Part shown: piece by piece, positions 5,041-20,065 of the stretch | Numbering within the stretch: the stretch's first letter is position 1 | How the letters are laid out: each line of letters begins with the position of its first letter | DNA from: a virus | DNA: 20,104 nt | Strand: one strand, 5' to 3' | IMG/VR virus record: IMGVR_UViG_3300029258_003675 | Span: 1-20,104 of that record | Made by a program: the position numbers and the translations under genes | The notes under the pieces: generated by a model | The model's input: only the letters and a program-made list of their open reading frames with translations | Database searches by the model: none | What the model was told of the DNA's origin: nothing

Positions 5041-6486
5041 TTACACTCTGTTTACAGTAGTATCAATAGGACTGAGAGATACGCTGTTCACATTGTCGAA
5101 TGCGTAGGTACGATCAATCACCACATTCCTGGCGACTGCGACCGCTCTGCCTTGCTCTTGAAGAGCCATGCCGTAGCGCTCACGAATCTTAATGTAGTTG
5201 ATTTCACGTTCAATATCTGACCACTGTTCCATAGTAGGATTCTCTTTCTGGAGGATCAGGCCGCCCTTACGGGAGTCTGCAAAGATGATGTTCGATGCAA
5301 ACTTGCCATCAGATGCTCCACCGGAGATCTTGTAATATGGTACAAGCGGAGATACGAGGATCTTAAAGGGACGATCTACGTGCTTAGGTGTTGTGTAGTA
5401 TGTTGCTCCGAATGGAGTCAGATTGGGCCATGCATAAGGTGCAACACCCAGCTTCTGATATATCGGATCAACAGTATTCCAGTTACCACCACTGACTGAG
5501 CCAGGAGCGATAGAAGGAGTACCCGAACCACCAAACTTACCCCAAGGCTGGCCAAGAGAACCCCAAGGCATGGGATCCCAACCAGAATTGGCGCTTCCGC
5601 TTGGCACGTACTGAACGCCATTCCCCATAACCACTTCACGGATCTCTGTATCTCTTGCCCAGAGTGCCCATGCGAATGGGTGAATGAGGATAGTGTCTAT
5701 CATGTATCCACGCATCTCCATCCATGCGAGAATGTTCATGATATCGTCGATACCGAGAGCACCGTTGGGAAGCCCATCGATGCCACGACCTGTGCAGGAA
5801 CCGAGTTCAGTGTTAGATGCATCGGCATTATCCATGAGAGTGTAACCACACTGCTCGTTAAGGATCTTTGTACACAGGGTTTCTTTCTTGTTAAGGAGTT
5901 CATCTGCGAGTGACCTGACAGTGTAAGCAAATATTCCCCAGTTATCAGACTCAAGAAGTTCTCGAGTTCCAGCGACCTTGGCACCATATTTCTTGATCTC
6001 AAGGTTCAATCTGTAAGCCTGATCACTTACAGCACTGGAAGTCTCTGGATATTCGCTTCCTTCAGGAACTTCTTCTACTTCTACCCCACCAAGAGTACGG
6101 ATCGTTACATTGATCGCATTCCCAGCATAAGGAATAGTTTCGAAGAGATTCGCTGATATGATCCTCGCAGGAACAATCCTGCTCTTCATGAGGATCTCAG
6201 TCGCAGCATAGAACAGTTGAGGGAAGTCTTTAGATGCGAGAACTTCCTTAATCTGCACCTTTTCGCCAGCAAGTTTGCCGGTTTCGAAGGCGGAGAGGAT
6301 TTCCATAACATCTGCCATATCCCTGTCAGAAGCAGCCTGGACTACTTCCGGGAGAAAGTTTCCGTCACCATCAGTGGCGGAAATGCCTTCCTTCTCGAGT
6401 TCATCTGCAGCATTCTTCACCGATTCCATTGGATCGTAGGAATCGAGGTATCGCAGGGAACTTAAACCTGAAGTGTTGAATCTCAT
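5041..6486 (-). CDS. Major capsid protein, HK97 fold
   Basis: This encodes 481 residues; GGGGGT six bases before the ATG supports the start. The N-terminal 80 or so residues are charged and helical, as expected for a delta-like region removed by the prohead protease. The body has the order of an HK97-type coat protein: E-loop-like EVEEVPEGSEYPE (residues 136-148), strand YRLNLEIKKYGAKVAGTRELLES (158-180, in two parts around the central lysines), then a long spine helix region to about 205. The A-domain includes DTILIHPFAWALWARD (264-279). A Gly/Trp/Pro-rich insertion lies at about 289-357. It assembles the icosahedral shell with the protease/scaffold and the 371-residue protein encoded just upstream. 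The terminator directly downstream fits a very highly expressed gene. The family call is confident although remote. Confidence 0.88.
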   Translation of the reverse strand: MRFNTSGLSSLRYLDSYDPMESVKNAADELEKEGISATDGDGNFLPEVVQAASDRDMADVMEILSAFETGKLAGEKVQIKEVLASKDFPQLFYAATEILMKSRIVPARIISANLFETIPYAGNAINVTIRTLGGVEVEEVPEGSEYPETSSAVSDQAYRLNLEIKKYGAKVAGTRELLESDNWGIFAYTVRSLADELLNKKETLCTKILNEQCGYTLMDNADASNTELGSCTGRGIDGLPNGALGIDDIMNILAWMEMRGYMIDTILIHPFAWALWARDTEIREVVMGNGVQYVPSGSANSGWDPMPWGSLGQPWGKFGGSGTPSIAPGSVSGGNWNTVDPIYQKLGVAPYAWPNLTPFGATYYTTPKHVDRPFKILVSPLVPYYKISGGASDGKFASNIIFADSRKGGLILQKENPTMEQWSDIEREINYIKIRERYGMALQEQGRAVAVARNVVIDRTYAFDNVNSVSLSPIDTTVNRV

Positions 6487-9696: not shown

Positions 9697-11286
9697 CTAA
9701 TTCTTCCTCGATCCTGGTCCTGCCTTTGTACCGTGCTGGTTGGCAGGTTGATTCTGTGACTTAGTCTTCCTGGAAGTACTTGAAGCACTATCTGCAGCAC
9801 CTTCAGCATCCGATACACCAGCTTCCTTGAGAGGAATCTGTACCATATTGACAAAGAGTTCGTCTTCATCGGAGTCTGTAAGCGGAGGCATCTTGAGTAT
9901 TCTGCGGGCTTCATGGTGTGTAATGAGATTGCCTTGCCACAGATTGATTACGTCATTGTGACGTGCAATCTGTTTCTCCAGCCTCATTTCGTTGAACTCA
10001 AGGCGGATCTTCAGCTCTCCATAGCTATCAAACAGATCTGTCTCTTGAAGAGGCGTATCTGCTTTCACAAGGAGATCAGGAATAAGATTGTAATTGATAG
10101 GATTACAGATAGCTGTTGCGAGATATGTACAGTGATCAGCCAGAGCATCATCGATACTCTCTGCTGTATTCCTGTTGGCAGTATCTCCCTCACCGACAGA
10201 TATGGGGGAACTTCCTGATCCTATGAGCACTCTGTACTTGAAGTGTTCAAGGTAGGGAATCAGATTGGTAACACCTTTCTGAAGATTAACTACATCGATA
10301 TTGGTACGATGGTCAGTAGTAATCATCCCATTAGGAGCCATATCTACCAGCTGAGCATTCACTCCCCGTACCTCATCCGGGCTGGCTGGAAGCTCGTCAG
10401 TGCCAACTCGTGCGTGGAGTAGGGGTGATCCAAACTGAAAGGCAAGAAGCTCTACAGTTTCTTCTATAGAACGTAGCGTAAGAATGTCATCAAGCATCTG
10501 AAAGCAGGGAGGCTCCGGGAAGAAATCATCGCCTGGATCTGACATGTAAGCGATCATGAGATCCTCGACAGGGATTCCGTGGAACTGTCTATTTCCAGAG
10601 GATTGACGCTGTAAAGCCTGTGCTACAAAGCTTGCCGTACCGTCCTGTATTCCTATCAAACGGCCTTTGTCGTTCACGTAAAACATTACACGATGTGGCA
10701 TGATGATACGCAGCCGGGTTATGCGTTTCTTCCTTTTGTCATCAATAGCCATATCGTCCTGCACTCGTTCACGTACTTTGTGAACAATGAGGATGCCATA
10801 CTTGAGAAGACTAAGTGCTGCTGAGTAAATGAACTGATCGAGCGGCATACCGCTATCCATTTGGATCCGGGCACACTCGGTCTTTACCATACCCAACAGC
10901 TCTATATCATCAGATGAGAACCCATACCCGTTACGAAGCATGGTTTCTACCTGGCGAATGAGCGAACGTGAGAAGTATGATTCTTTGTTCCAGAAGGCAT
11001 CAAGGCGGTCATATTGATAAGGTGATCTTACCATTGTCATGTTCATATAAGTCTTACGGGTTGCTTTCCGTCTTTCCCTCATATAACGTGACAGTTTACG
11101 ACCACGAGGCCTGTCATTTGCAAAGAGTTCATTCTTCATTACCACGGGAGCAAACTCTTCTGAGGAGAATCCCTCATCGAATACACGATCCATAACAGCA
11201 GGTACAGTTTCCTGCACCGCTCCATCATATAGATTGCTCACGAGGCGCTGTGTGCGTCTCTGACGTATATTATCCAATACTCTCAT
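9697..11286 (-). CDS. Portal protein
   Basis: This encodes 529 residues; the start lies inside the end of the upstream gene (17-base overlap), with AAGGAA six bases before the ATG. The middle has portal hallmarks: a strand pair RLRIIMPHRVMFYVNDKGRL (190-210, in two halves), the segment IPVEDLMIAYMSDPGDDFFP (238-257) leading into a long helix from LDDILTLRSIEETVELLAF, and the SGSSPISVGEGDTANRNTAE region (358-376) that corresponds to the 'g...nRatAe' motif of many portals. The C-terminus (470-529) is polar and low complexity. Twelve copies form the ring at one vertex through which the terminase pumps DNA. The position after the terminase gene, with one protein between, supports the call. Confidence 0.85.
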   Translation of the reverse strand: MRVLDNIRQRRTQRLVSNLYDGAVQETVPAVMDRVFDEGFSSEEFAPVVMKNELFANDRPRGRKLSRYMRERRKATRKTYMNMTMVRSPYQYDRLDAFWNKESYFSRSLIRQVETMLRNGYGFSSDDIELLGMVKTECARIQMDSGMPLDQFIYSAALSLLKYGILIVHKVRERVQDDMAIDDKRKKRITRLRIIMPHRVMFYVNDKGRLIGIQDGTASFVAQALQRQSSGNRQFHGIPVEDLMIAYMSDPGDDFFPEPPCFQMLDDILTLRSIEETVELLAFQFGSPLLHARVGTDELPASPDEVRGVNAQLVDMAPNGMITTDHRTNIDVVNLQKGVTNLIPYLEHFKYRVLIGSGSSPISVGEGDTANRNTAESIDDALADHCTYLATAICNPINYNLIPDLLVKADTPLQETDLFDSYGELKIRLEFNEMRLEKQIARHNDVINLWQGNLITHHEARRILKMPPLTDSDEDELFVNMVQIPLKEAGVSDAEGAADSASSTSRKTKSQNQPANQHGTKAGPGSRKN

Positions 11287-13786
11287 CTGTTGTTCCTTCG
11301 CCCCTTAGTATATCAAAGATGTACCGCATAGACTCCTGGATTTCACTAACACTGGTTCCAGTCATCTCTTCCATGAGAGTTACGAACTGTCCCATGTTGA
11401 TAATCTCCCCAGTCTCGGGATCTACGAAGGCCTCTACGGATAAACTTGGGGCGTTTATAGCATTATTCACGATCTCCATCGCAGCACTGCCGAACTCGCC
11501 AAACTGCTGGGCAATGCTTCCCTGCATATTGTCTATTTCAGCCTGTTCCTCTGGGGAGAATGTGTTTGATTCTGCCAGCAATGGTTCACTGTACTCATCA
11601 AACCTTCTGAGATTCTCTGGACTTCCGGCAAGATTCACGAGGTTCTGTACACTAGTGTACTCGTTCCTGACCTCCTGCTGTACGATCTGATTGACAAGAT
11701 CTTCAGGATCGTAACAGTCTCTCAGATTGAGAAGAAGATCGATGATACCACCAAGTAGTTTGGAGAGTGCTTCAAGTGACTTAAGTCTCATCCTTGAAAG
11801 CATGATATCGTTGAGGAGCACCACGTCTGGAAGCGTGAAGTCCAGAACACTCATAATCTGATTAATGATGCCCCATTTGAGATTACCCAGCAGACACAGG
11901 AGAAACTTCAGGAACTTATCAAACCCGAAACATTCATTGTTGATCATGTGTCTGATCTCAGGTATTGATTGTAAACCTGCGAGAATCTGGTCCAGAGGAC
12001 CGAACAGGATGTCCAGGAACTCTGAAAGCCCGTTGGCGATTGTTACCTTGATCATCTCCCACATTTCACCCAGTGGAAGCGTAAGACCTGCCAGGAAGAT
12101 CTGCCTCTGCATCTTTCTAATGAAGATATCAACGATCTGTTTGAGTACCTGAAGAAGCTTGATAAACTGCTGGAGATCTTCGTTCGCCCTGAGTTCACGA
12201 GCCCATGTGACATGTAGTTCGTTGCGTACGGCATCTCCATCTGTCTGATCAGGACACCAATGTCCTTTCAATATGAGAGAACGCCACACTGATGCTATCG
12301 CTACTATAAGATAGATGAAACAGCATAACTGCTTTGAGGATCCCCATTTGGCAAGGTTTGCTACTATAGATACTGTTCTATCAGCAAATCCTATTATCTC
12401 TGCGAGTACATTATCGATCTGTTCGAGGAACTTGAAATATGAGTTGCCTACAAGAGGATTCCCATTATTAGTAGGAAGGAACCTTCCAGCGGCATCATTT
12501 ACTGCACTGACGAGCCTCTCTTCGGGGCTTCTCTGGTCTTCATCCTGCATTCCAAAGCAGTCCCATGGGGCAGATGGTACACCGGTATATCGGTACTTTC
12601 GATTGTTCTTGATCGCACTCGATACTTCCTCAGTCATTACAATCCCTGCGTCAGCTGCTTCAATACTTCTGGACAGGGGCTTGATATTCTCACCACTGCT
12701 CCCCATAGTACCGGTGATAGATGGACGTGATTCAAGATACCTGGCTACTTCTTGAGCAGCAACACGTTCAAACTCAGTTGGCTCAATGGAGTCATTATCA
12801 GCATTGCTGTAGCTGCAGATTGTACGGACCCCTGCATATTCTGGGTCTAGTTCTCCCCGTATCCACTTATCAAAGCAAGTGCTCTGCAGGAATGCGAATG
12901 AGTTCTCCATGTTGGGCCCAAAGAAGATCGGCTCCATAACACAGCAGTTCACCTGCTTGAAGTCCACCTTTCTCCACTGTTCAGTATCACACCCAGGTGG
13001 TGCTGTTGATTTCTTTCGGCATCTATATCCAACAATTGCAAGCAGGTCACTCTCTACCTTATTGAGATATCCCGCCACCCAGGTACCAGCCGGCCATTCG
13101 AACCCAAAGCTTTTACCAACAGGACTTGGTACTCTGAACTTCCATCCAAGCTTAAGCTTCCCCATGAAGAAGCCACAGGTCCAGCCAACTGTATAATGTA
13201 CTGCAATGACATGTGCCATCTTCAGTACAATTCCCAGGAGTTTCAGTCCATACAGTACCTGTTTCAGATATGATGCATTCTGCAGTTTATTGGTCACCGC
13301 TCCTTTCAGAGCTTCTGAATTCATGTTTCGTGTTGCATCAAGGTATGGTTGTTCCTGTGCCCGTGGCGCATATGCCCCGGCAACCCGGAATATACATCGT
13401 GCTACATTAACAGGAAGAGTGTATACAGGGTCAGTCTTGGGAAGAGGTTCTCCCGCTGGATCAGTAAAATGTATATCAGTAATATCTGTGATAAGTCTCA
13501 GGACATGCAGTGGCGCATCCCCAACGTAGAGATCAAGGTCTTCTATGGTCTTATCAAGCAGGAATCCCGCCCGCTCCTTGATCTTAAGTGCAATATCCCT
13601 GTAGTTGGCAAACCTATCAAGGAATGCACTGAATGGATCCGGTACATCCTCTACTGGAATCTTCAGAAGATCCGAGAGAGATGAACGATATGCCCTGGCT
13701 TCGGTAAGCGCATCGGGAATGTTTTCTCGTAATCTCTCTGGTGCCGGTATATCCGGTCTATAGAATAGTTCGTCTCTTTCCGCCAT
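11270..13786 (-). CDS. Large phage protein between terminase and portal, function unknown
   Basis: This encodes 838 residues. It overlaps the terminase end by 29 bases and the portal start by 17, so it is translated as part of the packaging/portal cassette. I do not recognise a family. Residues 1-170 are mixed and soluble-looking. Residues 171-210 hold a hydrophobic helix pair (VLYGLKLLGIVLKMAHVIAV and following). A cysteine cluster lies at C256, C266, C281, C282, C304 and C324. A clear membrane-type segment, QLCCFIYLIVAIASVW, is at 486-501. Residues 540-690 are strongly amphipathic helices (FIKLLQVLKQIVDIFI, FLKFLLCLLGNLKWGI, LLGGIIDLLLNLRD). The acidic C-terminus contains DPETGEIINMGQFV. 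Candidate roles are an internal or ejected virion protein that crosses the host membrane, or a portal-associated factor. The hydrophobic content argues against a simple terminase accessory protein. Confidence 0.7.
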   Translation of the reverse strand: MAERDELFYRPDIPAPERLRENIPDALTEARAYRSSLSDLLKIPVEDVPDPFSAFLDRFANYRDIALKIKERAGFLLDKTIEDLDLYVGDAPLHVLRLITDITDIHFTDPAGEPLPKTDPVYTLPVNVARCIFRVAGAYAPRAQEQPYLDATRNMNSEALKGAVTNKLQNASYLKQVLYGLKLLGIVLKMAHVIAVHYTVGWTCGFFMGKLKLGWKFRVPSPVGKSFGFEWPAGTWVAGYLNKVESDLLAIVGYRCRKKSTAPPGCDTEQWRKVDFKQVNCCVMEPIFFGPNMENSFAFLQSTCFDKWIRGELDPEYAGVRTICSYSNADNDSIEPTEFERVAAQEVARYLESRPSITGTMGSSGENIKPLSRSIEAADAGIVMTEEVSSAIKNNRKYRYTGVPSAPWDCFGMQDEDQRSPEERLVSAVNDAAGRFLPTNNGNPLVGNSYFKFLEQIDNVLAEIIGFADRTVSIVANLAKWGSSKQLCCFIYLIVAIASVWRSLILKGHWCPDQTDGDAVRNELHVTWARELRANEDLQQFIKLLQVLKQIVDIFIRKMQRQIFLAGLTLPLGEMWEMIKVTIANGLSEFLDILFGPLDQILAGLQSIPEIRHMINNECFGFDKFLKFLLCLLGNLKWGIINQIMSVLDFTLPDVVLLNDIMLSRMRLKSLEALSKLLGGIIDLLLNLRDCYDPEDLVNQIVQQEVRNEYTSVQNLVNLAGSPENLRRFDEYSEPLLAESNTFSPEEQAEIDNMQGSIAQQFGEFGSAAMEIVNNAINAPSLSVEAFVDPETGEIINMGQFVTLMEEMTGTSVSEIQESMRYIFDILRGEGTTDESIG

Positions 13787-15476
13787 ACATTAACCCCGCT
13801 GTTCGTCCTCCGCTGGTACTTCTTGCACCAAAGGTACCGGTTGCCACTCTTGGCGCATCAAACCCGGATTGTGCCCTACGTGGTGCTTTGACTACTTCCA
13901 TCAGGCTCCCGGAACTAAGACTTTCATGGGCTGCATAGTTGTGATTCACTTTACCAGCATGAAGATCATATCCATGTATACAGAACTGGAGCGCTGATAG
14001 ACTGTGGGTATTCTCCGAATAGTCAAAACCACTTTCTCTGTGGTGTTTCTTCCTCCTGAAGTTTCTCAGTTCCTTGACGAGTCCTTCCCGGTATTGATCT
14101 TCCTCTTTGGGAAGAATAAGGTCTTGTTCCAGATACTTCGCCACAAGGCCTACTATCTTTGTCTTGGTGCGGACAGTGACCACACTTCTGCGCCGTGCCC
14201 CGGATTCAGGAGAAGTATATTCTATCACCATCTTCTCCTTCTTGACAGAATCTACAATGTTCAGCATCTTGTTGGGATCCCCACCATGGTTGGGAAGCTG
14301 CTGTTGCATGAGTTCTATCTGTGTCTCTCCGTATCCCGCATCTACTGATATCATATGGTACTGACACTCATCATAGAGTTCCAGGATACGACCGACCGCT
14401 GCTGTTTGAGTATATTCTTCATACGCAATGATTTCATGTCGGGTAAGCCACGGTTTCCCGTACATTACACAGACTTCAACCAAACGCACGCCATGTTGTG
14501 GATTGTTCCAGTCCACACCAAGGAACTTGGTACCTCTCTCGTACTCCAGTGTGTTACGCATATCTTCCATGGTAACATACTTGCCGGCAATACGGCTGCG
14601 CTGTACTGCCTCGTCTATGATCTCTTTCTTATAGACTGCACCTACTGCTTCAGTCCATTCGGCAAGGACCTCAAGCTTCCAGGTAACTTCATCATGGATA
14701 AGATCACGAAGACGTTCTTCTATCTCCTTCCAGTTCTTCTCAAGAGTGGAGGGAAGGTGATATTCTGATCCAAACTTGTTCTTTGGATCTGCACACCTGT
14801 CACAGAAGTTCCTGAACCAGGTACCCTCAAGACCACTCGGGGTCGATGATGCCCAGATAGGAATATTTGGATTACCCTTTACAATACCTTCTATAACCGG
14901 CCATGCTCGTACCGGGAGGTATTCCGCTTCATCAATATAGATATGGGTAGCTGCCTGGCCCCTGGCTTTATCAGGCTTCTGAGCCATGAAGAAGAATCGT
15001 ATGACTGAACCAGTACTGACCTTAATCTCGTAATCGTACTCTGGTTCAAGAGAACTCTTCACTCTCTTCTTAGTTCCCATACTGAATGAATTACGAAGAT
15101 GAGATCCACGCAGGAGATTGGTCATAATCTCTAACATACGGTTCATGTTCTTCTTCTCAGGAACAAACACCAGGATAACCGAGTTTGAAGTAGTCCCGCT
15201 GGTATGCATGATATCCACACACATATGGACGGTCTTGCCCTGCTGACGACCGACTCGAGCAGCCCGGTTGAGTGCCGGGTCCCTCAGTATATTCATGAAC
15301 TGGTCTTTACATGCGAACTTAGTCTTCCCATGATCGGGATCATAGAGATTGGTTTCAGCCCACAAGACCGGGTCAGCTGCTTCCTTGAGCAACTGTAATT
15401 CTTCGTCAGTGGCGCCTTCTTTACGTAACAAATCAAAGTGTGCTTCGGTAAACTGCCGCTTAAGCTGTGTTTCCAT
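13758..15476 (-). CDS. terL: Terminase large subunit (packaging ATPase and nuclease)
   Basis: This encodes 572 residues; AGGAG five bases before the ATG supports the start. The ATPase domain shows a Walker A variant ARVGRQQGKT (73-82), Walker B IYIDE (179-183) with catalytic Glu183, and a coupling motif SSTPSG (210-215). The RNase H-like nuclease domain shows GVDWN (Asp322) and SVDAGYG (Asp379). The third acidic position falls in DYSENTHSLSAL (485-496), where the usual Asp-Ala is replaced by Ser-Ala, so Asp485 or Glu488 may serve. The C-terminal 60 residues are Gly/Arg/Ser-rich and probably flexible. It docks on the portal, drives DNA into the prohead and cuts the concatemer. It is the first gene of the minus-strand structural block, read from the divergent region at 15477-15550. 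Confidence 0.95.
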   Translation of the reverse strand: METQLKRQFTEAHFDLLRKEGATDEELQLLKEAADPVLWAETNLYDPDHGKTKFACKDQFMNILRDPALNRAARVGRQQGKTVHMCVDIMHTSGTTSNSVILVFVPEKKNMNRMLEIMTNLLRGSHLRNSFSMGTKKRVKSSLEPEYDYEIKVSTGSVIRFFFMAQKPDKARGQAATHIYIDEAEYLPVRAWPVIEGIVKGNPNIPIWASSTPSGLEGTWFRNFCDRCADPKNKFGSEYHLPSTLEKNWKEIEERLRDLIHDEVTWKLEVLAEWTEAVGAVYKKEIIDEAVQRSRIAGKYVTMEDMRNTLEYERGTKFLGVDWNNPQHGVRLVEVCVMYGKPWLTRHEIIAYEEYTQTAAVGRILELYDECQYHMISVDAGYGETQIELMQQQLPNHGGDPNKMLNIVDSVKKEKMVIEYTSPESGARRRSVVTVRTKTKIVGLVAKYLEQDLILPKEEDQYREGLVKELRNFRRKKHHRESGFDYSENTHSLSALQFCIHGYDLHAGKVNHNYAAHESLSSGSLMEVVKAPRRAQSGFDAPRVATGTFGARSTSGGRTAGLMYGGKRRTIL

Positions 15477-15550: not shown

Positions 15551-15889
15551 ATGCGCAATTTCAGTAGATTCATGGGACGTTTTGGCACTACCAGACGCAA
15601 TCCAAACATCTTTGGTATGGCTGGGAAGCTTAAAGATGCAGCCACAGAGAACATTGCGCTGGCTGGCGGGAAGAGTAAATACTTCAGAAGGCTTGGTACC
15701 GTCGCCGGAACCACTGCTCTTGGTATTGCAGGTGGTGGGCTATATACGGCACATCGATTCAGAGAAGGACTTACCCACGGAATGTATCCTGGCAGTGTAA
15801 TGCCCATGGAATCAGGGAGATTCGGGATTCGTACCAACAATACTCCGGCAGGTCTCAGCGGAGTACGATTTAACTTCAGGAGAAGATAA
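15551..15889 (+). CDS. Small basic Gly/Arg-rich phage protein with one hydrophobic segment
   Basis: This encodes 112 residues; AGGAGG four bases before the ATG supports the start, and the stop overlaps the next ATG (TAATG), coupling it to the 490-residue protein. The N-terminus is Arg/Phe/Gly-rich (RNFSRFMGRFGTTRRN). Residues 48-66 (LGTVAGTTALGIAGGGLYT) could form a short Gly-rich membrane helix. The C-terminus ends FNFRRR. There are almost no acidic residues. I do not recognise a family. The coupling, composition and position next to the structural block suggest a virion or internal protein partnering the downstream product; a small holin-like role is less likely because there is only one weak helix and no lysis gene nearby. 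Confidence 0.65.
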   Translation: MRNFSRFMGRFGTTRRNPNIFGMAGKLKDAATENIALAGGKSKYFRRLGTVAGTTALGIAGGGLYTAHRFREGLTHGMYPGSVMPMESGRFGIRTNNTPAGLSGVRFNFRRR

Positions 15890-17361
15890 TGCCATTGTTT
15901 GCCCCATACCGTGCAGGTGCCAGCCTGGGATATTCTCTGAGTGATCTGGGTAATGTGCGTAATGACCCCTACACAGCACCCACGTACGATGATATCATTC
16001 CCGATCCCTCATCGATAGCAATTCTCCCGCTTAAACTAAGTCTCTATGCCAATACAATGCGTTCAGCATGGTATGGTATGGGATATATGGGGTCAATTAC
16101 TAACCGGTTTCGTCCTGAAACACTGCAAAGGCGATACAGATCCACTACCGTAAACGGCATGATTGGCAATATGCTCCGAACTACCCAGGGCGGTCTCCAG
16201 CGATTCGTGACGGGACAGTCCTTCAAGTTTGAAGGCCTTGAAGAGTTCGGAGAGATGATATCTCCTACATTCAAGAAGAAACCCTGGTCTGTTTCTCAGG
16301 GAGTATGGAAAGAACTGCAGCCTGGGGAAACCTACAAGGATCCATTTAAGACCCGCATGAACCGCTGGGTTGGAGCACGAAGATCCGCAATGAATCGTCA
16401 GGTTGATAAACCCTGGGGTATTATTCATTCAACCGAAGCCGAAACAGCCTACATGCAGGCAGGTGGTAAGTGGAGTGCAGGATTCCTTGATCGATTCTAT
16501 ATATCTCCCTCAAGTGTGGAATCTGGTCTTGCTGATCTTGCTGATAACAATGTAATCAGCCATGATACCTATTACCGTCTCACTGAGAATAATCTCCTCC
16601 AGGAAGAGATTGCCGCTGAGATGTATACGGGAAAGAGGAGGATTACCAAGGCCGGTACGGGTAAGCGTGATCGGATACAGAAAGCCATATGGGGCAAATA
16701 CTCCCCTGACGAGATGGTGCGTGGGGACTATAAACGCTATTATAAATCAATACTCCGTGACCGGGATACCGTATCTCTCTGGGATATTATCAAAGGTGAA
16801 GGGCCCAAGAGAGAGCTTGGCAGATGGGGAGAATTGGACAGATTTGTTCAGAGAAGAGCCAGTTTCTTCACGGGCAATAATGCAGTGCGGTTCACCCACA
16901 ATATGACCGGACCACGTCCTTTCGCAATGAGATTCACGTTCCAGTGGAACAAGGCAGCGTATGGGCGAGTATATGGACAAGCTGCGGAAGCGGCGCTCCG
17001 TACCATGCAGGACCAGGGTATCAACGCCGCATCGGCCGCAGTACATGAAGCAGCACATAATATCGCAGCCACGACAGTCCGACGAGTACGCATTGCCAAG
17101 ATGATACGTGGTGTCGGTATGGCAGCCTATGGTGTTCCCATGATAGTTAATGCAGCACTTGGTGCCTATAAGATGGTGAATGAAGTTGTGGCCAGGGCAG
17201 CACCTACAGTACAGATGCTAACAAAGATGGAATTCGGAGGGGGAGAAGTCCTGAACAATGCCAGGACTGCCTCCGAACGACAACGAGCGATGCAGGCAAT
17301 ACAGAATGCCCACATGAATGCCCGCTATCTTATGGGTAATGAAGCAACGATGTACCACTAG
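15889..17361 (+). CDS. Phage virion-like protein with C-terminal hydrophobic helices, function unknown
   Basis: This encodes 490 residues, starting at an ATG that shares its A with the upstream stop. The protein is rich in Arg, Gly, Ala, Tyr and Met. Residues 1-360 look like a soluble, strongly basic domain with many aromatic residues. Residues 362-400 form an Ala-rich helix containing HEAAH at 386-390, which fits the HExxH zinc-protease pattern but may be chance. Residues 405-430 (RIAKMIRGVGMAAYGVPMIV, continuing NAALGAYKMV) are hydrophobic enough to insert in a membrane. The final part (459-480) is Ala/Gln/Arg helical. A plausible role is an internal head or ejected protein that helps genome entry. 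The family is not recognised. Its stop codon sits in CTAG shared with the convergent HTH gene. Confidence 0.7.
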   Translation: MPLFAPYRAGASLGYSLSDLGNVRNDPYTAPTYDDIIPDPSSIAILPLKLSLYANTMRSAWYGMGYMGSITNRFRPETLQRRYRSTTVNGMIGNMLRTTQGGLQRFVTGQSFKFEGLEEFGEMISPTFKKKPWSVSQGVWKELQPGETYKDPFKTRMNRWVGARRSAMNRQVDKPWGIIHSTEAETAYMQAGGKWSAGFLDRFYISPSSVESGLADLADNNVISHDTYYRLTENNLLQEEIAAEMYTGKRRITKAGTGKRDRIQKAIWGKYSPDEMVRGDYKRYYKSILRDRDTVSLWDIIKGEGPKRELGRWGELDRFVQRRASFFTGNNAVRFTHNMTGPRPFAMRFTFQWNKAAYGRVYGQAAEAALRTMQDQGINAASAAVHEAAHNIAATTVRRVRIAKMIRGVGMAAYGVPMIVNAALGAYKMVNEVVARAAPTVQMLTKMEFGGGEVLNNARTASERQRAMQAIQNAHMNARYLMGNEATMYH

Positions 17362-17642
17362 TTCTCCCCAACATCATCTGAGTTGAACTTGAACTTGACG
17401 AGATCGTCCATATTTACCGTGCGCTTCCGCTCGTCATGTACAGGCACACCATCAGTACGAAACCTTCTACTAAGACTGAACTTCTTCCGGAATCTGGTTA
17501 CCGTGTATCGATCTAATCCCAGATACATGGCGATCTGTACATCGCCCCATCCGCTCATGAGCAACTGAAGTATGACCTTTCCGTGTTGCTCTTCAGCAGC
17601 TGATAACCTATCATCGATAGAGCCTTCCGGCTTGTGCAACAA
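17358..17642 (-). CDS. Small helix-turn-helix DNA-binding protein
   Basis: This encodes 94 residues. The only HTH-like region is residues 22-56: a first helix KVILQLLMSGW, then DVQIAMYLGLDRYTVTRFRK, the classic 'IA..lG.....V.r.r' pattern of homeodomain-like phage and transposase HTHs. The C-terminal 30 residues are charged and may be disordered. The start is uncertain: two tandem TTG codons (17642 and 17639) follow a GGAGGT by 13 and 16 bases, which is long, and an in-frame ATA lies four bases after it. A candidate promoter and TAGAT/ATCTA repeats directly upstream suggest autoregulation. It could be a small repressor or activator. A small terminase subunit is a second possibility because those also start with an HTH, but this protein lacks an obvious oligomerisation core. 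Confidence 0.65.
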   Translation of the reverse strand: MLHKPEGSIDDRLSAAEEQHGKVILQLLMSGWGDVQIAMYLGLDRYTVTRFRKKFSLSRRFRTDGVPVHDERKRTVNMDDLVKFKFNSDDVGEN

Positions 17643-17671
17643 GTGATTTATTGGTACCTCCGCTATGAATA

Positions 17672-17713
17672 GTTAGATGAGGACCTTTCCCGAATGAATC
17701 TAACATCATCTAA
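17672..17713. promoter_or_regulatory. Candidate operator: TTAGATGA inverted repeats upstream of HTH gene
   Basis: TTAGATGA (17673-17680) and TCATCTAA (17706-17713) are perfect inverted repeats 25 bases apart. Nested within them, GTTAGAT (17672-17678) and ATCTAAC (17698-17704) form a second perfect pair. Three copies of the TAGAT core thus lie in the leader and over the putative -10 box of the HTH gene, as expected for autoregulatory binding sites. Confidence 0.45.
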
Positions 17714-17736
17714 ACATTAATATAGTATGCAGTCAA
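17708..17736 (-). promoter_or_regulatory. Candidate sigma70-like promoter for the HTH gene
   Basis: On the minus strand, TTGACT (17736-17731) is followed by a 17-base spacer and TTAGAT (17713-17708). The -35 matches consensus at five of six positions; the -10 is poor (three of six) and coincides with an inverted-repeat half-site. Transcription would begin near 17701, leaving a leader of about 58 bases. Confidence 0.45.
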
Positions 17737-17757
17737 GCACTTTCTGTATATATACCA

Positions 17758-17776
17758 TACAATAAACATTATTGTA
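17758..17776. repeat. 19-bp palindrome with TACAATA half-sites
   Basis: TACAATAAACATTATTGTA has eight-base perfect arms around a three-base centre, and lies in the 225-base stretch between the two regulator genes. Each arm contains TACAATA, which also occurs in both divergent regions. There is no T-run for a terminator in either direction, so a protein-binding site is more likely. The rest of this stretch (17643-17867) holds a weaker TAACGA/TCGTTA repeat (17842-17856), GACAT/ATGTC arms (17820-17838), and no gene I can support. Confidence 0.45.
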
Positions 17777-17867
17777 AATAGGTACATAGTCCTATACGAT
17801 ATGGGATTAATGGCTCAGAGACATAACACCGGAATGTCACGTAACGATATTCGTTAGGTAGATGGTA

Positions 17868-18770
17868 TTAATTGAGGCGGGAAAGCTCAAACCTGTTACG
17901 CATACCGGTCTTACGGAGAATATTACTTATATGGTTCTTCACTGTAGATGGCGATATCTCCAGAACTTCTGCAATCTGATTGTTGGTACATCCTTCAGTG
18001 ATATATACCAGTATCTCCTTCTCACGAACACTAAGTTTATGGATCTCTCCATATTCTCGTATACCAGTAGGAACCACTGGATGTCTTTGTTCACGTATCC
18101 ACATGATAAGAGAGAGTACCCCAGCAGTGAGTACAGCTATCGTACATATTACAGTATAGGTCAGACCAATGATAGCGGTATCAATTCTATTCATCGTACT
18201 AATATCAATTATAGCAACAATGCCTATGGCTGATACCCCTACGGCTGTACTCTTCAATACTACACCAGGAAGCTGACGGGGTATGTTATTCCAGCATGTG
18301 AAGATAATGGTGATAAATATACCGGTAAGTAAGACAAAGAAGACATTTGTTCCGGCAAAGTAGAGTGACGACCATGAGGGAAATATCATACTGTGAATCA
18401 TATACCATGCCAAAACTATACTAAAGCTCCCGGTATAGAGCGCATAAAGTCTGCTGATCCATCGTACCCACAGTACCATCCGATTAAACATGCGAGATAC
18501 AGATACTGTCATGCAGCAAATAGTGATGCAATAGAATATACTCGTACCAACATGCATATAGTCAGATGATAAAGTCACCAGGTACAGAGTCTGAGCAACC
18601 ATTAGAAGAATGTACAGAGCACTCATAATATACCCGCAAGCAAACATGTAAAGGCTCTGTTTATGATGCTTGGATGTTTGTGCCTGTACTATTAGCATAA
18701 GAGTCAGTGCAAGTACAGCGCCGCCTATTATGAAACCAACAACCATGTCTAAGTGAGGTATACCATACAT
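17868..18770 (-). CDS. Seven-helix membrane protein with C-terminal LuxR-type DNA-binding domain
   Basis: This encodes 300 residues. Hydrophobic segments lie at about 9-30, 42-65, 73-92, 107-130, 137-159, 174-190 and 198-225: seven predicted membrane helices joined by short loops. Residues 244-300 are a complete LuxR/GerE HTH: LSVREKEILVYITEGCTNNQ, IAEVLEISPSTVKNHISNIL, RKTGM, including the invariant E, I-A and T-V-K-H-I features. The membrane part has no histidine kinase or receiver domain, so this is a one-component regulator whose DNA-binding domain should face the cytoplasm. The sensed signal is unknown; a lipid, small hydrophobic ligand or membrane state is conceivable. The ATG at 18770 has only a weak purine stretch (TGGATGA) before it, which suggests low translation. 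It is divergent from the 100-residue gene and shares overlapping promoter elements with it. Such a regulator in a phage packaging and virion region is unusual. Confidence 0.9.
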   Translation of the reverse strand: MYGIPHLDMVVGFIIGGAVLALTLMLIVQAQTSKHHKQSLYMFACGYIMSALYILLMVAQTLYLVTLSSDYMHVGTSIFYCITICCMTVSVSRMFNRMVLWVRWISRLYALYTGSFSIVLAWYMIHSMIFPSWSSLYFAGTNVFFVLLTGIFITIIFTCWNNIPRQLPGVVLKSTAVGVSAIGIVAIIDISTMNRIDTAIIGLTYTVICTIAVLTAGVLSLIMWIREQRHPVVPTGIREYGEIHKLSVREKEILVYITEGCTNNQIAEVLEISPSTVKNHISNILRKTGMRNRFELSRLN

Positions 18771-18784
18771 AGCTGATCATCCAG

Positions 18785-18813
18785 TTGTCTATATTCTAAT
18801 GAAAGTGTACAAT
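18785..18813 (+). promoter_or_regulatory. Sigma70-like promoter for the right-hand plus-strand operon
   Basis: TTGTCT (18785-18790), a 17-base spacer and TACAAT (18808-18813) form the best promoter in the window. Transcription would begin near 18820, downstream of the ATG at 18799. This is one reason to place the next gene's start at 18847. Confidence 0.65.
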
Positions 18814-18820
18814 ATACCAA
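18793..18820 (-). promoter_or_regulatory. Overlapping candidate promoter for the membrane LuxR gene
   Basis: On the minus strand, TTGGTA (18820-18815), a 16-base spacer and TAGAAT (18798-18793) lie 22 bases before the LuxR start. It interlocks with the plus-strand promoter, so polymerase or regulator binding in one direction should block the other. Confidence 0.45.
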
Positions 18821-18846
18821 TCATAGCACAGGACTGGAGGAAGTCA

Positions 18847-19149
18847 ATGAAAAGTGATCTTTCTGTGAAGATGTTGTCTTACAACCAGGTAAGAGATATG
18901 GCAAGTATTTCTTACATTAATACCAGAGGGAAAGTCAAATCTGTGTATATCCATCGAGATACATTCAGTAAGCTGATGAGTGGTGATCTCGATAAGAAAC
19001 CTGAAACAGACGGACCCACCATGGACCAGCGTGAGCTGAAAGATGTTCTTATCAAGGAAGTGAAGAAGGACTATGATAAATGGTTTGATCACTCCGCAAA
19101 CACTTTGGCAAAGGCGGACTGTCATGGAAGAGCAGAACTCCAAGCCTAA
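18847..19149 (+). CDS. Small charged phage protein, function unknown
   Basis: This encodes 100 residues from the ATG at 18847, chosen because GGAGG lies six bases upstream (18836-18840) and the promoter at 18785-18813 would begin transcription after the earlier in-frame ATG at 18799. The N-terminal half looks like a compact beta/helix unit (LSYNQVRDMASISYINTRGK, VKSVYIHRDTFSKLM). The remainder is Lys/Asp/Glu-rich and helical (RELKDVLIKEVKKDYDKWFD). There is no signal peptide or membrane segment. It overlaps the next gene by 26 bases, so the two are likely made together. No family is recognised; a small DNA- or protein-binding partner of the downstream four-cysteine protein is a guess. Confidence 0.65.
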   Translation: MKSDLSVKMLSYNQVRDMASISYINTRGKVKSVYIHRDTFSKLMSGDLDKKPETDGPTMDQRELKDVLIKEVKKDYDKWFDHSANTLAKADCHGRAELQA

Positions 19150-20065
19150 GAAGAAGTCTCCTACAAAGGCGAAGACGGAGAAGAGGGTAGTACATAAACG
19201 TGCTAACTCTAAGGAGCGAAGACCGTCGAAGTCAAAGGTAAAGGAGATAGAGGAACTGGATCTCCTGACGGATCCTATGACTCTGGAGATTCAATCACAG
19301 ACTCCTGTAGCTTTCGTAAAGGACCCGGACCAGGAAGTTCCTGTTGAAAGAATACCCGAACATCTCCGTGATGCGATCATTCAGAACTATGGGGAAGAGT
19401 TTCTCCGAGAGAAGACCTGGACATTGCGTATACTGAAGAAGCTGAACATGGCGATAGGGAACCCCCGAGAGAATGTCAATAATACATTGGCACAGATATG
19501 CGGTCCCAATTGCCAGTATAAAGACACATGCCCTCATGATATTGTCGGCAGGGCGCCCGTAGGAGAACGATGTCCCCAGGAGCGGGGCCTTATCAAGCTT
19601 CTCTACCATGAATACATGGTTGCTGTATCTGACCGGCTGCATAGTGATGTTGAAGAACTCAAACATGATATAATATCACATAACCTTGTGATGGGTCTTG
19701 TTGAGGCAGACATTACATCGATGCGCCTTGATGGCTCAATTGCGAAAGACGGATTCATCTCAGAGGTACCCACAGTGGTCAACGAGGATACTGGAGAAGT
19801 CCATTACCGTGAGGAAGAAGCAGTAGCAGTACGGATCAAGGAACGGGTATATAAACGACGTGACCAGATATACCGACAGCTGCTGGCTACTCCTGAGATG
19901 GCAGAGAAGTACAAGAAGAGAGATACTCAGGATGCGCTGGCCAAGACAGCCAATCTTGTGGAACGGCTTGAGGGTTTAGTAGGAAAGGTGGAACAGCGAC
20001 AGATTACAGACGCTGAGGTGGTGGATGAAGTCCCTGAAGGACATTCTAAGACCGGCGAACACTGA
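19124..20065 (+). CDS. Four-cysteine phage protein, possible small terminase subunit
   Basis: This encodes 313 residues from the ATG at 19124, preferred over 19073 because AGGCGG lies six bases upstream. The first 45 residues are extremely Lys/Arg-rich. A cysteine motif follows at 126-150: ICGPNCQYKDTCP, GRAPVGERCPQE (C126, C130, C136, C150), suited to a metal or Fe-S site. I have a general recollection of a similar 'C.g.C.y...CP....g.aP.G..CP.E' pattern in phage proteins. Residues 155-265 form long helices around a short strand pair (FISEVPTVVNEDTGEVHYRE, 211-230), then helix RIKERVYKRRDQIYRQLLAT. The C-terminus (275-293) is coiled-coil-like. Helical hairpin plus C-terminal oligomer helix, basic N-terminus and absence of another candidate make TerS a reasonable but unproven reading. 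Confidence 0.7.
   Translation: MEEQNSKPKKKSPTKAKTEKRVVHKRANSKERRPSKSKVKEIEELDLLTDPMTLEIQSQTPVAFVKDPDQEVPVERIPEHLRDAIIQNYGEEFLREKTWTLRILKKLNMAIGNPRENVNNTLAQICGPNCQYKDTCPHDIVGRAPVGERCPQERGLIKLLYHEYMVAVSDRLHSDVEELKHDIISHNLVMGLVEADITSMRLDGSIAKDGFISEVPTVVNEDTGEVHYREEEAVAVRIKERVYKRRDQIYRQLLATPEMAEKYKKRDTQDALAKTANLVERLEGLVGKVEQRQITDAEVVDEVPEGHSKTGEH

Follow-up and report, generated by a model that had tools for sequence, protein, structure and literature searches.

A LuxR-class gene with a predicted seven-helix membrane domain at a variable site of a phage genome fragment

The locus and its phage context

The stretch of DNA analyzed here (the window) is a 20,104-bp IMG/VR virus record, a single contig representing a metagenome-assembled fragment. 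On its minus strand, an ORF at 17868–18770 starts with ATG, contains no internal stop and encodes 300 aa, which according to a GerE match and predicted hydrophobic segments constitute a LuxR-class one-component regulator with seven putative transmembrane (TM) helices. The same strand carries genes that identify the window as phage DNA, namely those for the terminase large subunit (TerL, 13758–15476; PHROG 2, 8.2e-23), the portal protein (9697–11286; PHROG 9232, 2e-15; 27% identity to Moorella phage MTATph1) and the major capsid protein (MCP, 5041–6486), the assignments being based on PHROG or on tblastn hits among annotated phage proteins, which for the MCP are the capsid proteins of ME3, MTATph1 and KLEB27-3. 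The cultured relatives are distant, with portal identities of 23–27%, and they are large phages (Moorella phage MTATph1, 177 kb; Bacillus phage KLEB27-3, 217 kb; Acinetobacter phage ME3, 235 kb, with a capsid annotation that cites Bacillus phage 0305phi8-36), so that the window is probably a piece of the much larger genome of a large tailed phage. An open-ended minus-strand ORF of 618 aa at 1–1854 resembles a contractile-tail sheath by eye. The protein encoded at 15889–17361 has a C-terminus (ATERQRAVxAIQxAxMNARxLxGNEAxxYH) that is strongly preserved even among relatives that have diverged widely, unlike the remainder of this protein, which varies.

The gene order of the region is common to the window and the related contigs L003, L023, L025, L026 and L157, the first four of which have terminase identities of 54–66%. 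The LuxR gene is located in a small variable site, the left border of which is a minus-strand gene for a small helix-turn-helix (HTH) protein of 94 aa (17358–17642) with a weak HTH_29/HTH_23 match and homologues in L003 (61% identity over 70 aa) and L023 (56% over 68 aa). The right border is a plus-strand gene for a conserved protein (18847–19149) with homologues in L003, L023 and L025, and with counterparts in L026 and L157 judging from location and sequence resemblance. In L003 and L023, the small HTH gene adjoins the homologue of the right border gene across a short intergenic gap and the LuxR gene is absent. At this site, L025 showed no cargo and no small HTH gene, L157 has a small ORF of 96 aa, and L026 contains an 80-aa ORF together with a gene whose 337-aa product weakly matches a winged HTH (Crp/MarR-like, with scores under the curated cut-offs). 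Within the records of these five contigs, several of which are fragments, we detected neither a match to the whole LuxR protein nor a GerE protein above the family cut-off. As both flanks are conserved in order and none of the recovered relatives carries the LuxR gene, this gene is accessory cargo between conserved phage genes, outside the core late-gene programme. Synteny of both flanks with related phage contigs bears out the original prediction that the regulator is phage-encoded, and an insertion of host chromosome was rejected on the same grounds.

Over 17.7–18.8 kb, the GC content is about 0.39–0.41 (0.409 for the LuxR gene itself), compared to 0.45–0.52 across most of the rest of the window. 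Both the codon preference of the LuxR gene (0.037; other window genes 0.006–0.089) and its GC3 (0.399; other window genes from 0.396) are within the range of the phage genes, indicating that the lower GC content alone is no evidence of recent import and that nothing points to foreign or random DNA.

The LuxR gene and the plus-strand operon are separated by a divergent intergenic region of 76 bp (18771–18846), a candidate for both an autoregulation site and a target promoter, and the AT-rich spacer on the downstream side of the LuxR gene, towards the small HTH gene (17643–17867), is a possible second target. A promoter-like TTGACT-16-TATGAT is present at 18847–18820 on the minus strand; the scan returned 13 sites at an expectation of 8.4±2.7, so that such sites are only slightly commoner than in shuffled sequence, and it identified no strong promoter. 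No operator-like repeat was found in 18771–18846. For the two plus-strand genes, the mechanical starts at 18799 and 19073 make the ORFs too long, and the likely starts, by ribosome site or alignment with relatives, are 18847, which has a GGAGGA ribosome site just upstream and aligns with the L003 protein, and 19125. This second gene (19125–20065) encodes a conserved Cys-containing protein (CGPxCxYKDxCPHDIVGRAP) with 48–62% identity in four relatives, a counterpart in L157 and distant ones in two cultured phages. The operon had been taken for a putative packaging operon, which does not hold because in L003 it leads, downstream of the homologue of this second gene, into a gene (L003:947–4513, minus strand) for a 1188-aa protein that has a Cys-rich stretch and, at its N-terminus, a PD-(D/E)XK nuclease domain (PF12705, 1.4e-14); terminase, portal and capsid are all encoded on the other side, on the minus strand. 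A role in lysis/lysogeny control, which had also been suggested, is unsupported, as no tyrosine integrase was found in the records (fragments) of five relatives. The suggested control of late genes and reading of host state or membrane potential are likewise unsupported. ORFs of a size similar to the L003 nuclease gene occupy the same position in the contigs L161, L162 and L163.

DNA-binding and predicted membrane domains

The LuxR/GerE HTH comprises residues 245–297 (17880–18038, minus strand) and matches PF00196 with an E-value of 2.6e-17 and 62.6 bits at a cut-off of 23.5 (2.6e-20 in the genome search). It is complete and near the consensus, with TVKNH and NR motifs, and the nearest solved structures are DNA-binding domains of the NarL/DevR/VraR/GerE type. 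In an AlphaFold2 model calculated from the single sequence without an alignment, the HTH was predicted confidently (pLDDT 79–93), in agreement with the intact LuxR HTH of the original prediction. A linker of about 20 residues (226–244) connects the last predicted helix to the HTH.

Residues 10–225 (18096–18743, minus strand) are predicted to form a membrane domain of seven segments with N-out/C-in orientation, as judged by hydropathy, a DG-type scale and a positive-inside count. Of the segments at residues 10–28, 40–58, 74–92, 111–129, 141–160, 170–188 and 207–225, six pass a Kyte-Doolittle threshold of 1.6, whereas the fourth is weaker in hydropathy (peak 1.24) as well as on the DG-type scale (1.35). 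Counted from the N-terminus, the loops contain 0, 2, 0, 4, 0, 1, 1 and 3 K+R, which gives 10 inside and 1 outside for seven helices; a six-helix model that keeps the C-terminus in the cytoplasm would reverse this bias to 4 inside and 7 outside (worked by hand from the same loops). Because the loop charges alternate only with seven helices, this number is favored over six, and seven helices with N-out/C-in orientation are the topology best suited to the sequence, which would put the HTH on the cytoplasmic side. Shuffling the N-terminal 235 residues yielded six or more segments in 69 of 1000 cases, indicating that the segment count alone is only mildly beyond what the composition would produce. 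Support comes from the exceptionally hydrophobic composition (mean hydropathy +0.71, compared to –0.83 to –0.05 for the other window genes) together with the charge pattern rather than from the count alone. The seven hydrophobic segments described originally thus reappear as seven predicted, charge-consistent TM segments, where fewer than four would have spoken against a membrane regulator. AlphaFold2 modeled the membrane part as all-helical with low confidence (mean pLDDT 54.7, pTM 0.28). This part has no Pfam or NCBIfam domain match, the known 7-TM receptor families represented in Pfam (7TMR-DISM among them) included. A fold search against viral structures with this poor query model returned nothing below an E-value of 0.001; its top ranks, which are not significant, were proteins of 568 and 607 aa from Siphoviridae sp. 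ctOCb13, the first of them named response regulator, and a 12-TM LuxR encoded by a phage contig could be of that size.

Homologue searches and comparison with known regulators

No close relative of the LuxR protein was found in viral contigs. A survey of these contigs with a degenerate LuxR-HTH pattern yielded at least 126 ORFs in at least 122 loci, and among the 126 matches listed, 49 have at least 150 residues before the HTH, 9 are possibly incomplete and none has three or more hydrophobic segments. All 17 matches in annotated phages were at the HTH end, with a query coverage of at most 34%, and the five metagenomic 'Bacteriophage sp.' matches that were examined resemble bacterial proteins and lack a membrane part of several helices. 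The corresponding records (MT835671, MT836758, MT835501, MT836581 and MT837411) are described as unverified, and their LuxR matches are typical soluble bacterial proteins, namely response regulators and an ATPase-type LuxR, likely on bacterial DNA. A GerE match in KLEB27-3 was rejected as a membrane LuxR because it looks like a sigma factor. Among genome contigs, a single match covered only the HTH of a soluble Gottfriedia protein; two of the best plasmid matches examined were response regulators beside histidine kinases, and the membrane part alone had no match in plasmids. In 398 Bacillota genomes, no match was obtained at 1e-14 and seven HTH-end matches at 3e-11, none of those examined having membrane segments. 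A full-length homologue was therefore absent from the viruses, plasmids and 398 Bacillota genomes searched, with every examined match being restricted to the HTH end, and the predicted topology stems from a single sequence. Coriobacteriia and Spirochaetota are among the groups enriched in membrane-embedded one-component transcription regulators (TTRs), and for this reason it matters that Bacillota were the only broadly sampled phylum. A literature search of partial coverage found no published phage-encoded polytopic LuxR protein.

In bacteria, membrane-bound one-component LuxR proteins are indeed known, as had been stated originally, in the form of 12-TM LuxRs (PMC9734109), and TTRs in general are widespread (PMC10269533). 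A survey of bacterial and archaeal genomes counted 50,302 TTRs across 9,673 genomes, 56% of them single-pass (PMC10269533). Like these TTRs, the phage protein has a recognized DNA-binding domain and, by prediction, TM regions in the same polypeptide, but it is viral and has seven predicted, charge-consistent segments, whereas the surveyed TTRs are cellular and more than half of them have a single helix. In Eggerthella lenta, where one strain has 83 TM LuxRs, 12-TM LuxRs activate catechol dehydroxylase genes, and DadR, HcdR and CadR activate genes encoded nearby in response to small molecules (PMC9734109). The phage protein shares with these 10–12-TM LuxRs of Coriobacteriia the order of an N-terminal multi-helix membrane domain and a C-terminal LuxR/GerE HTH, and its gene adjoins the plus-strand operon in the way that a DadR-type gene often adjoins its target. 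In contrast to the 10–12 N-terminal helices of the bacterial DadR type, which is encoded beside metabolic enzymes, it has seven predicted segments in 225 of its 300 residues and is encoded beside phage genes. Membrane domains of the TM LuxR family generally share less than 20% identity with each other (PMC9734109), which would explain why a homologue of the phage membrane part was undetectable. Phages are already known to eavesdrop via LuxR-type quorum-sensing receptors, which are also encoded by phages and likewise bind DNA via a LuxR-class domain (Silpe and Bassler 2019, PMC6456758). These receptors bind host autoinducers (PMC6456758), whereas the protein described here has a putative membrane input part instead, and in Pfam it matched only HTH families and no autoinducer-binding domain. 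The best sequence matches of the HTH are NarL/FixJ/DevR/VraR response regulators; Pfam gave no Response_reg match for a receiver domain, and the N-terminal part is hydrophobic, unlike in NarL/FixJ response regulators.

Regulation from the membrane and alternative explanations

We consider it probable that the protein is a TTR that, as accessory cargo of a large phage, controls nearby phage genes. The seven helices, with the N-terminus outside, would act as the input domain, and the LuxR HTH would be exposed to the cytoplasm about 20 residues past the last helix. Domains of the NarL type bind DNA as dimers, and the cytoplasmic HTHs probably do likewise, so their dimerization or accessibility may respond to a ligand or to an altered membrane. 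The HTHs would then bind nearby phage DNA while the protein stays tethered to the membrane. The likeliest targets would be the 76-bp region 18771–18846 and/or 17643–17867, of which the former is the most economical, and binding there may control, positively or negatively, the LuxR gene itself and the adjacent plus-strand operon. In this reading, the protein would be analogous to the 12-TM LuxR DadR of Eggerthella, and bacterial DadR, HcdR and CadR serve as precedent for regulation from the membrane. The TTR reading is also favored by L026, which has another putative DNA-binding gene in the position of the LuxR gene.

It is unlikely, though worth considering, that the same membrane regulator was captured from a bacterium rich in TM LuxRs and acts as a moron chiefly at promoters of the host, whose metabolism or envelope it would reprogram during infection. 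Characterized TM LuxRs control host metabolic genes (PMC9734109) and the accessory gene is absent from relatives, as would suit such a function, but its divergent placement relative to the phage operon suits local control, its codon usage is already phage-like and no bacterial full-length homologue was found, with Bacillota as the broadly sampled group. We regard it as quite improbable that the membrane part is a tether or reservoir without ligand sensing, from which the HTH is proteolytically released or by which it is kept near the site of injection or replication. The linker at 226–244 would be compatible with this function, but seven helices are far beyond the needs of a tether, for which 56% of TTRs use one (PMC10269533).

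There is very little to suggest a membrane protein of other function, such as superinfection exclusion or a membrane effector, in which the HTH is a relic. Phage membrane proteins often act in exclusion, but an HTH that is complete and close to the consensus, motifs included, argues against a relic. An assembly chimera or host DNA would be in line with the single metagenomic contig and the drop in GC content, but GC3 is within the phage range, the low GC content is partly explained by hydrophobic codons and, since the flanking conserved phage genes are positioned as in the relatives, two junctions would need to be wrong, which makes this the explanation that we least expect to be correct.

Beyond the TTR reading as such, we propose tentatively, and with more doubt than belief, that this seven-helix protein serves a large phage as a membrane receptor coupled directly to the HTH, through which a signal from the membrane or from outside the cell is read during infection and expression of the phage's neighboring operon is set, at a genome site where related phages swap in other regulators. 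If true, one protein combining a polytopic membrane sensor with a DNA-binding domain would connect outside signals directly to phage transcription, and the range of membrane one-component regulators would widen to include viruses as well as cells. The class as such is known from bacteria; new is a regulator of this kind in a phage, represented so far by one sequence and thus a singleton. The variable site is a place to seek further phage regulators. The interval L026:6194–7451 corresponds to 17643–18846 of the window and is possibly an exchange site for regulators.
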